A stretch of DNA of 58,618 bases, from positions 1 through 58,618 of the forward strand of contig CALKXD010000138.1 in NCBI GenBank assembly GCA_938003855.1, given 5' to 3'. The stretch comes from an uncultured Granulosicoccaceae bacterium (GTDB taxonomy: Bacteria > Pseudomonadota > Gammaproteobacteria > Granulosicoccales > Granulosicoccaceae). The translations under genes and the position numbers were made by a program. The notes under the pieces were generated by a model. That model did not search any database. It was not told the DNA's origin and saw only the letters and a list, made by a program, of their open reading frames with translations. Shown here piece by piece: positions 1 to 2,936 of this stretch (position 1 is its first letter; each line of letters starts with the position of its first letter).

Positions 1-135
1 GTGCGGGTTTTAACTATTTCCTGAAAATCCGCATTATGAACAGATAGCTGGCACGCTTATTCCAGCAATTCGATATCGCACCCTGCAGTTGAGCTCTTTT
101 TCAGTACAGAAGTATCGCGAAACCCAAGATACTGT
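1..135. other. Window edge, possible tail of an upstream gene
   Basis: A forward reading frame is open from the window edge (codons from base 3) and stops at TAG 45-47. It would end in about 14 residues, too few to identify. A terminator-like hairpin lies about 90 bases further on, which fits a forward transcript entering from outside the window. I see no other gene here. Confidence 0.2.
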
Positions 136-159
136 ACCGCAAAGAAAGCGGTTTTTTTT
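136..159 (+). terminator. Rho-independent terminator
   Basis: ACCGC (136-140) pairs with GCGGT (148-152) across an A-rich 7-base loop, followed at once by a run of T to 159. The stem is short but the T tract is long. It probably ends a transcript from the gene left of the window and separates it from the peptide gene at 228. Confidence 0.65.
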
Positions 160-227
160 CTACTAGCCTCATAACCACATCAGCGAAATTTACTGATGCA
201 ATTCAATTCAACTGAGTAGATAGCAAA

Positions 228-419
228 ATGAAACCAACTACCACTCCCCCCGTAAACACCGCTAAATCTGCCATGGGATTTGCCAACCAGTCCACTGCCG
301 TCAAGCAACATATCCAAAAGACAAAACCCGCACCGCAGGCACAGCCAAAATCCAAAACTGCCATGGGCTTTGCCAACCAGCCAACAGCGGTTAAAAAGCA
401 CATTCAAAAAGAAGGCTAA
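228..419 (+). CDS. Small basic protein with a duplicated 19-residue motif
   Basis: This 63-residue protein is not a family I recognise. It consists of a Thr/Pro-rich leader, a motif at residues 13-31, a Pro/Gln/Lys linker and a second copy at 43-61. The motif runs K-[ST]-AMGFANQ-[SP]-TAVK-[QK]-HIQK; 16 of 19 positions are identical and the period is 30 residues. The protein is strongly basic, has no Cys, and shows no signal peptide or membrane segment. The copies differ at eight synonymous third codon positions, strong evidence that this strand and frame are translated and under selection. The gene lies 26 bases upstream of a DUF6065-like gene in the same direction, so the two are likely co-transcribed. 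No clear Shine-Dalgarno precedes the ATG. A modified-peptide precursor, a small nucleic-acid-binding protein or a protein-binding linear motif are all possible. Confidence 0.75.
   Translation: MKPTTTPPVNTAKSAMGFANQSTAVKQHIQKTKPAPQAQPKSKTAMGFANQPTAVKKHIQKEG
264..410 (+). repeat. Diverged in-frame direct repeat, two 57-base copies
   Basis: Copies at 264-320 and 354-410 encode the two motif units of the peptide at 228. Most base differences sit at third codon positions and are silent; only three of the 19 codons change the residue. The copies have therefore diverged for some time while the protein sequence was held constant. Confidence 0.85.
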
Positions 420-445
420 CCGGCCCCGGATAAAGAGCAGAGAAA

Positions 446-1279
446 ATGGCAGCGACTGCAATCAAAAACGACAGGACACAGAAGCCTGATAGTACACACC
501 AGGCCGCTGATCCGGTTATTACGTTTTTTAAGGCGTATCCCGAAACTCTGCCGGCAATGAGTGCCGACCGATCTGCGCTCGGCACCATTCCCGCCCAGGC
601 GTACCAATACTGCGAAGCGATGACAACGGCATCAGCATTCGGCTGGTACGCCTTTCCTGCAGCCGATCTTCAGCTGTGGTTTGATGGCGTTGATATTTAT
701 CGGGCACACGGTGACGAGTGGCATCGCTTAGCATCAGAACAACTGCCTGGCATGGAACACTGGTGGAACCCGAATTGTCCTGACCACCTGGCCGATATGG
801 CCCCGCCGTTTGTGACCAGCCTGGGCATTCCCGGGTACCTACAAATTTGGTCAGGCTTGCTTGTTTCCACCCGAAAAAACTGGAGCATACTGGTTAGGCC
901 ACTGGCAAATGCACAGAAGTCCAACCAGCTGTTTTGCTTCGAGGGAATAGTCGAAACCGACCACTTTCAGCCCGCGCCGTTATTTATAAACCTGAAGCTG
1001 CTGGTCACCAATACCATCATTAATATTTCAGCACACGAACCCTTATTTCAGGTGCAACCGCTGCATCGCGATTGTTACTCCCGGGACACCCTGAATGCCT
1101 CTGACCACAGAAATATTAGTATGGATCAACCCGACTCGGCCGGCATGACCGATTTAGATTGGGGTGGATTTCAGAAAACCATCCGTAGCGCCGACCCGGG
1201 CAACGATATGCATTCCGCCGGGCAGTACGCCACTACTACACGGAAACGCGCGCGCAAAACCACCCCTATCCTGCGCTAA
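446..1279 (+). CDS. DUF6065-like protein
   Basis: A 277-residue soluble protein. The order of landmarks matches my recollection of the DUF6065 family: a conserved region with FGWYAFP near residue 64, a W-x-D-G segment, a PGYLQIWSG strand followed by an aromatic/basic stretch and a PLAN loop near 150, then GIVETD near 167 and an EPLFQVQP segment near 200. These look like strands of a compact beta-rich fold; the biochemical role of the family is unknown to me. The last ~60 residues are polar and probably disordered, ending in a basic cluster. No signal peptide or membrane segment is seen. A purine-rich stretch (GAGCAGAGAA) lies just before the ATG. The 26-base gap to the repeat-peptide gene suggests one transcript. 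Family assignment is from memory, not a search. Confidence 0.65.
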   Translation: MAATAIKNDRTQKPDSTHQAADPVITFFKAYPETLPAMSADRSALGTIPAQAYQYCEAMTTASAFGWYAFPAADLQLWFDGVDIYRAHGDEWHRLASEQLPGMEHWWNPNCPDHLADMAPPFVTSLGIPGYLQIWSGLLVSTRKNWSILVRPLANAQKSNQLFCFEGIVETDHFQPAPLFINLKLLVTNTIINISAHEPLFQVQPLHRDCYSRDTLNASDHRNISMDQPDSAGMTDLDWGGFQKTIRSADPGNDMHSAGQYATTTRKRARKTTPILR

Positions 1280-1310: not shown

Positions 1311-2936
1311 TCAGTCCCTGGGAACTCCGGCAATTTCAAGGTTTGACGCGATTTTCTCTCCAATCGAATACATCGCGCTGGGCGATCGACTGCGGTAGCT
1401 GCTGGTCGTAAAGCCAGGGTCGCTACGTAGCAGTTTTTTGACTATTTTTTCCGCCTCGGTCATTTTTCCACGCTCCACCTGAACCGCAGCCAGTGTGCGT
1501 AAGTTAGAGGTGTGATCCGGGTTAAGTTTATATCCGCACTTCGCATGGGATGCTGCTTTATTAATATTTCCAGCAGCATAGTAGGCAGCCGCGGCACAGG
1601 TGTGAAACAGCGACAGTTGTGGATCGAGCGGTGACAGCTGGAACATTTTTTTAGCAGCAGCAACTGCCTGCTCCCCTTGCCCTTCCTGATAAGACAACGC
1701 TGCCGCCTGGCAAGCGTACACCAATGGCTCATTGGGGTTTGTTTTACAGGCCGCTTTATAGGTTTCTAACCCGAGATCGGGATCCCGGTGCATGTGCGTT
1801 TCTATAAGACCTTTCATGGTCAGGCCCAGCGCATGACCGGAGTTGACCTCCAGTGCTTTGGTGCAGTGCTCTACCACTTTATTTTTGTCGTTTTCATCGA
1901 TTTTCTGTGACCAGCCCCCGCTGCGATTAAGCTTTAGCATGTACCACTGTGCCAATCTGGCATGAGCGGTGGCCTGCTGTGGCTGTCTGGCAACAACATC
2001 TGCCAGCAGGTCTCTGGCCAGATCAAATTTACCACTGTGCATATGGTAGACGCCACCGAGAAGCTTCGTGTACAGGTCAAGTCCCGACATCGGCTCTGTG
2101 GCTGCGCGCTGGTACTCCCTGTTCAACACCGCCCCCATAACCGCTTTTGCTACTTTATTGAGAAGCCCGTCATACACTTCGTCATCGTAAATCAACTCAT
2201 CGACATGACACCTCAGATATTCCGTCCACATCACATCAAGCGTTCGGGTTTTTGCGAGTTCGATGGTAACGACTGCCCTGCCCGCCGCACAATAATAACT
2301 GCCAGAGACAACGTAGTCGGCATTCAGACGCTCGAACAGTTCACCGGGTTGCCAACTGAGATCTCTATACTGCGTTGTGCTCAGCCTGGAAATAACATTC
2401 GTTAAAGGAGACGCCGATAACCCTGCAATGACATTGGCGGCCACGACCTCGCCAATGACAAATTCCTTCGCGTCTTTAGCGCCAAGGTAGCGAAGCGGAA
2501 TAACAGCGATCGACGGCAGTTCCCGCACGGGTTCCAACACCAGTGCGTTTTGACTGACGACAATATCGGAGCTGGTAGATCGAGCAGAGGGCCCCTGTTG
2601 TCGGGCAAATGTCGCTATGTAGTTCCCAGCGGGTACATCAATGCGGACCGTCGAATTGCTGCCGGCATTTTTATAGTACTTTCTAAGGGATTTTCTGACC
2701 AGCCTGGCTATGTTTCGGACGTAGGGATCTGCCGGGTCGAAATCGGCTCCCTTACCAAACGCTTCCACCGCAATATTGTAGGAGCGGATGAATTCCGCGC
2801 CGTCCTCTACCGTCTGCCTGACTACATAGCTCAGGAATTTACGCAACCGTTGTGACTTTTTAAAATCGCCGCTCTGCAGAATGAGTTCGAGTTGCTCGAA
2901 AATCTCATCGCTTGCTGGCGATGGTGCAGAATCCAC
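1311..2936 (-). CDS. Winged-helix-like / TolB-like / TPR regulatory protein
   Basis: 541 residues from a GTG with a GGGAG upstream. The N-terminal ~100 residues match the domain at the front of many proteins annotated 'adenylate cyclase' or 'TPR protein' in Proteobacteria (RLRKFLSYVV, then SYNIAVEAFGKG, FDPADPYVRN and an RLVRKSLRKYY helix), a probable winged-helix DNA- or protein-binding module. Residues ~138-250 resemble the TolB N-terminal domain (PSIAVIPL, then DYVVSGSYY). The rest is TPR helices. I see no cyclase catalytic motif, so cyclase activity is unlikely. No signal peptide is visible. It ends close to the convergent DUF6065-like gene. A one-component regulator or scaffold is the best guess; the target is not evident. 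Confidence 0.75.
   Translation of the reverse strand: MDSAPSPASDEIFEQLELILQSGDFKKSQRLRKFLSYVVRQTVEDGAEFIRSYNIAVEAFGKGADFDPADPYVRNIARLVRKSLRKYYKNAGSNSTVRIDVPAGNYIATFARQQGPSARSTSSDIVVSQNALVLEPVRELPSIAVIPLRYLGAKDAKEFVIGEVVAANVIAGLSASPLTNVISRLSTTQYRDLSWQPGELFERLNADYVVSGSYYCAAGRAVVTIELAKTRTLDVMWTEYLRCHVDELIYDDEVYDGLLNKVAKAVMGAVLNREYQRAATEPMSGLDLYTKLLGGVYHMHSGKFDLARDLLADVVARQPQQATAHARLAQWYMLKLNRSGGWSQKIDENDKNKVVEHCTKALEVNSGHALGLTMKGLIETHMHRDPDLGLETYKAACKTNPNEPLVYACQAAALSYQEGQGEQAVAAAKKMFQLSPLDPQLSLFHTCAAAAYYAAGNINKAASHAKCGYKLNPDHTSNLRTLAAVQVERGKMTEAEKIVKKLLRSDPGFTTSSYRSRSPSAMYSIGEKIASNLEIAGVPRD

Follow-up and report, generated by a model that had tools for sequence, protein, structure and literature searches.

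What does a small, internally repeated protein do directly ahead of a DUF6065 gene, and do the two genes act together? The question is raised by a 58,618-base contig of an uncultured Granulosicoccaceae bacterium, the whole of which we refer to as the window; its base 1 is the contig end, and the locus is visible from that base onward. The first-pass annotation, made from the letters alone, described a 63-residue basic protein with two near-identical 19-residue units, encoded 26 bases before a DUF6065 gene on the same strand, and this description stands in full (Table 1). The peptide is very basic (pI 10.6) and its two units are identical at 16 of 19 positions; in 20,000 shuffles of its sequence, the top internal 19-mer match reached only 10/19. 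A profile of the unit, trained without the window peptide and without its sister, ranks this ORF first among the 919 ORFs of the window (E 6.6e-4). Searches of the window peptide and its relatives against Pfam, NCBIfam and PADLOC recovered no credible family; low-E matches of repeat-rich peptides to LiaG, thiE, YadA and the like are repeat artefacts below the cut-offs and were set aside. Comparison with the closest relative (L020) gives pN 0.14 and pS 0.75 for the peptide ORF, and pN 0.14 and pS 0.84 for the DUF6065 gene. The ORF is under purifying selection of a strength comparable to that on DUF6065 and, because its constraint matches that of its neighbor, we regard it as a real gene. Between the two units of the window peptide pS is 0.88 and pN 0.07, and the units within other peptides have diverged in a like manner (pS 0.99 and pN 0.09 in L022; 1.13 and 0.07 in L048; 0.63 and 0.04 in L124; 0.51 and 0.04 across the 12 units of L028). 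Within one peptide, the codons have diverged and the amino acids are nearly fixed; hence, the likeness of the units does not stem from recent duplication alone, since the DNA would then match too.

Table 1. Features of the cassette and its surroundings in the window
Feature	Position	Strand	Basis
GATACTGTAC, candidate operator/promoter element	128..137	+	each cassette locus of most close relatives has a single site
Hairpin plus T8; may terminate an upstream unit or serve as an attenuator	136..160	+	sequence
Repeat-unit peptide gene, 63 aa	228..419	+	kept in relatives; pN/pS constraint
Unit 1, KSAMGFANQSTAVKQHIQK, aa 13-31	264..320	+	internal repeat of the window peptide
Unit 2, KTAMGFANQPTAVKKHIQK, aa 43-61	354..410	+	internal repeat of the window peptide
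DUF6065 protein, 277 aa, predicted dUTPase fold at about residues 22-225	446..1279	+	PF19541; AlphaFold2 model
TPR protein, 541 aa, convergent with DUF6065	1311..2936	-	recurs beside the cassette in Granulosicoccaceae

The pairing extends well beyond this contig. Among 43 sampled loci of the window's DUF6065 clade, drawn from Gamma-, Beta- and Alphaproteobacteria, a short unit-bearing ORF is present at 39. In the clade peptides one degenerate unit, roughly [VI]-[RS]-x-G-x-G-x-x-[SL]-P-x-V-x-x-H-[IVL], occurs 1-12 times. In the window's own family, every full-length DUF6065 homolog found is preceded by a repeat or unit ORF, with three GAANQSPAVKKHI-type units in one genome (G010), two GSGVKSPAIKKHI-type units in another (G013), seven diverged copies in a third (G003) and a single unit beside some other homologs. 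A scan of genome contigs recovered the same architecture in Burkholderiales, soil Betaproteobacteria, Hyphomicrobiales, Bradyrhizobium and others, where the units take forms such as RMGSGELPPRVAKHV repeated 12 times (L028), QFGGGYISPSVLAHV-type units in Variovorax, VRYGGGSMP and IRFGGGSMPASLRK in soil Betaproteobacteria, four copies of VRLGNMSPAFKV (L043) and three of IANKSPAF on a Rhizobium plasmid. An even sample of 357 alphaproteobacterial genomes contains four members of the clade, all four with the peptide. A search of phage and plasmid records with the window's DUF6065 protein gave four rhizobial plasmids and zero phages. In IMG/VR, the clade is encoded on 11 contigs, most of them with GRIRxGxGxRLP-type units. 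On several of the IMG/VR contigs (L076-L083 and L086) a terminase large subunit gene lies near the cassette, which may mark a GTA or prophage neighborhood and not a free phage.

When each clade was scored by profiles trained without that clade, the upstream ORF came first in about 22 of the 35 loci with a peptide, each of which has about 100 ORFs; at the diverged loci where it did not (the window, L020, L025, L031, L033, L035, L036, L039, L040, L044, L048, L076 and L086), presence of the peptide was read by eye from its repeats or unit. The same procedure recovered a previously missed three-unit peptide in Hydrogenophaga (L041, E 3.9e-10), with the gene order peptide, EamA gene, DUF6065. In a scan of 17 genomes with the unit profile, significant matches were confined to DUF6065 loci; there were none in the clade-free genomes and none in three Roseobacter-group genomes that have DUF6065 alone. 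On the DUF6065 tree, in which L049 is a long branch of unsure placement, presence of the peptide takes two changes against 13.4 in shuffles, namely a single gain where the clade begins and a single loss within the Roseobacter group. The earlier proposal that the two genes work together is thus strongly supported by linkage, co-distribution and selection. It had been made contingent on related homologs having the peptide nearby, and on that point the pairing is upheld within the clade, but in the Pfam core clade of DUF6065 no unit-bearing ORF was found; hence, pairing is not obligatory for DUF6065 at large.

In the window, GATACTGTAC is the single match to GATACWGTAY, with 0.22 expected. This nearly palindromic motif, GATAC(A/T)GTA(Y), recurs upstream of other Granulosicoccaceae cassettes (L002, L003, L005, L006, L007, L020, L022, L023, L024 and L032) and is absent from 163 of the 190 fetched loci. 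Going by such sites, a dedicated regulator of the cassette is likely in the Granulosicoccaceae. The TPR protein, which recurs by the cassette in varying orientation (L020, L022, L024, L032, L039 and L044), is a possible candidate for this regulator by position only. The hairpin overlapping the end of the motif is not clearly kept in L020.

An open-access literature search found no paper naming DUF6065. The window protein passes the Pfam threshold for the family (PF19541; 30.4 bits against a cut-off of 26.6) with a partial match over profile positions 79-164, and this is its sole Pfam match up to E 1. An AlphaFold2 model built from 41 sequences reached a pLDDT of 90.8; a first model from 11 sequences (pLDDT 67.7) was discarded as too weak. 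In a Foldseek search of the PDB with this model, all of the matches listed are dUTPases (best E 5.8e-5), and superposition of the predicted structure on the Drosophila dUTPase gives a Z of 12.0 with an rmsd of 2.8 over 119 residues. The predicted fold (Z about 12) is what DUF6065 shares with the dUTPase/dCTP deaminase proteins, whereas it shows no significant sequence match to them: PF00692 (dUTPase) is not matched by the window protein, profile-profile comparison is not significant (hhalign probability 1.2) and a PDB sequence search with DUF6065 returned no match. In the best profile alignment, itself non-significant, E170-x-D172 aligns with the motif III aspartates, with E in place of one D, and Q202 with the motif IV glutamine; motif II is not clearly kept and motif V, the glycine-rich C-terminal arm, is not seen. 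The host genome encodes a separate, ordinary dUTPase elsewhere. DUF6065 is probably best seen as a dUTPase-fold protein recruited to another task. Distant relatives are found by profile match in phrog_7084, a set of haloarchaeal tailed virus and cyanophage proteins, which matches DUF6065 proteins of both clades (5.9e-7 and 5.3e-6). In the halovirus HSTV-2, the phrog_7084 gene adjoins those for thymidylate synthase and DNA polymerase, and no repeat peptide was noted there. As a separate point, gp40 of HSTV-2 (L098) and the other halovirus and cyanophage phrog_7084 proteins are possibly unrecognized dUTPase-fold enzymes.

The predicted fold allows the peptide to be viewed as a non-covalent multivalent partner, whose units would dock at dUTPase-like sites and regulate or cluster a nucleotide-binding DUF6065; perhaps they even replace the missing glycine-rich arm in trans. 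The combination of a fixed unit with a variable copy number suits multivalent binding, many units carry an R-hydrophobic-G-x-G that loosely resembles motif V, itself not seen in DUF6065, and the neighbors of the phage relatives just mentioned are in keeping with a role around nucleotides. However, the likeness to motif V is by eye only, with the arginine and the second glycine missing from many units, and this explanation leaves unaccounted for the transporters and the PqqD and JmjC fusions described below. We hold it to be the foremost of the rivals, albeit on the unlikely side.

MFS or EamA transporter genes are linked to the cassette in about 11 relatives. Three loci (L026, L028 and L031) have homologous MFS-type genes (30-38% identity) after DUF6065, and a fourth (L029) has one before the peptide; part of such a gene lies by the cassette in L027, a split MFS gene follows DUF6065 in Rhizobium (L048), and another MFS gene is found by the cassette in L030. 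An EamA gene directly follows DUF6065 in L034, L037 and L045, in addition to the one inside the Hydrogenophaga cassette. The first-pass annotation saw no modifying enzyme, protease or transporter nearby. This holds for the window, where profile searches of the locus found no known RiPP-modifying enzyme, protease or RRE and where, as in the rest of its family, no transporter is linked to the cassette, the upstream side here ending at the contig end; as regards transporters, it fails in the relatives listed above. In Bradyrhizobium sp. cir1, a YcaO gene (L035:5642-7012) lies some 0.8 kb past DUF6065; as it is missing in the next species (L036), we treated it as a coincidence.

The other DUF6065 clade offers domain fusions, each seen in one protein: to PqqD (PF05402, 1.5e-8), to SapC (2.8e-35) and to a Cupin_8/JmjC domain (4.6e-41). 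The PqqD fusion, from one genome of this sister clade and not from the window's, lies in a locus (L065/L164, G478) with three paralogous MKKPYVPPMVTxTVRL peptides, the DUF6065-PqqD gene and then an ABC exporter, together with a divergent second PqqD protein and a weak HPr-kinase-like gene. YxxP is a characterized RRE recognition motif (PMC12710340). The architecture of this locus is apparently that of a RiPP cluster, and the presence in one locus of the fusion, three YxxP peptides and an ABC exporter parallels lasso-type and PqqD/RRE clusters, from which the window's system differs in having neither RRE nor YxxP and in its unrelated unit motif. Elsewhere in the other clade, collagen-like GxPG repeat ORFs lie directly upstream of DUF6065 (L069 in G577 and L179 in G1219), a second kind of Gly/Pro repeat adjoining the family.

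Because transporters adjoin the pair in relatives and a distant DUF6065 is fused to PqqD/RRE, we lean toward a RiPP-like cassette for precursor, maturation and export, with the dUTPase-fold protein as the peptide-handling partner. We put its chances at slightly under even, ahead of the binding alternative because the latter, though it explains the repeats just as well, is less able to explain the transporters and the fusions. The short ORF would be a precursor of 1-12 recognition-plus-core units without a separate leader. DUF6065, with its dUTPase fold and its non-dUTPase sequence, would bind these units, perhaps at the site where dUTPases take up their nucleotide, and would process or modify them. 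The product would leave by a transporter, which is of MFS, EamA or ABC type in relatives and would be encoded elsewhere, or have been lost, in the window's family. Physical binding, chemical modification, cleavage and export of a product are all steps that we infer. A genetically encoded, conserved precursor adjoining its partner, one of the marks of a RiPP pathway, is observed. The first-pass annotation offered a RiPP role as one option; with the transporters and the PqqD fusion it becomes the best-supported one, but a classical leader is wanting: no conserved N-terminal leader was seen in the peptides, and in some genomes the units start at residue 3-7. The clade units have no Cys and few Ser/Thr, leaving common RiPP chemistries without an obvious target. 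The cassette resembles multi-core RiPP precursors such as those of graspetides, cyanobactins and fungal dikaritins in that a short gene encodes a variable number of near-identical units in tandem, and such systems too have an adjoining partner protein and often an exporter; it differs from them in having no leader, no known RiPP enzyme and a partner of predicted dUTPase fold. We are aware of no peptide-modifying enzyme with a dUTPase fold, and searches of the literature for a RiPP whose partner has such a fold brought up nothing of relevance. Conceivably the cassette represents a new RiPP class, one whose leaderless precursors of tandem units are modified by a dUTPase-fold protein recruited to that end; we advance this with more reserve than the RiPP-like cassette as such.

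The usual cargo of MFS and EamA carriers is small molecules. The units might accordingly serve as the scaffold for assembly of a small molecule that is then cut loose, the carrier exporting that molecule and not the peptide. The strong selection on the repeated units and the carriers in the relatives would agree with such a scheme; against it, no ligase, aminoacyl transferase or protease recurs consistently beside the cassette, and we deem it improbable. Least credible is a toxin-antitoxin or phage-defense pair, which a small basic ORF with a larger partner and the phage- or GTA-like terminase genes beside some copies might bring to mind, but which is at odds with the lack of any PADLOC match, the single gain and loss on the tree, the up to 12 units and the transporter linkage.

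Taken across the three proteobacterial groups, the peptide-DUF6065 cassette resembles a hitherto undescribed system by which a modified peptide is made or delivered. For DUF6065, a domain of unknown function, this leads to the hypothesis that repeat peptides are handled by dUTPase-fold proteins. If modification is true, the cassette would establish a RiPP class not seen before, and a very old fold would have found a new enzymatic use; if binding alone is true, it would be a new form of control of dUTPase-like proteins by encoded multivalent peptides.
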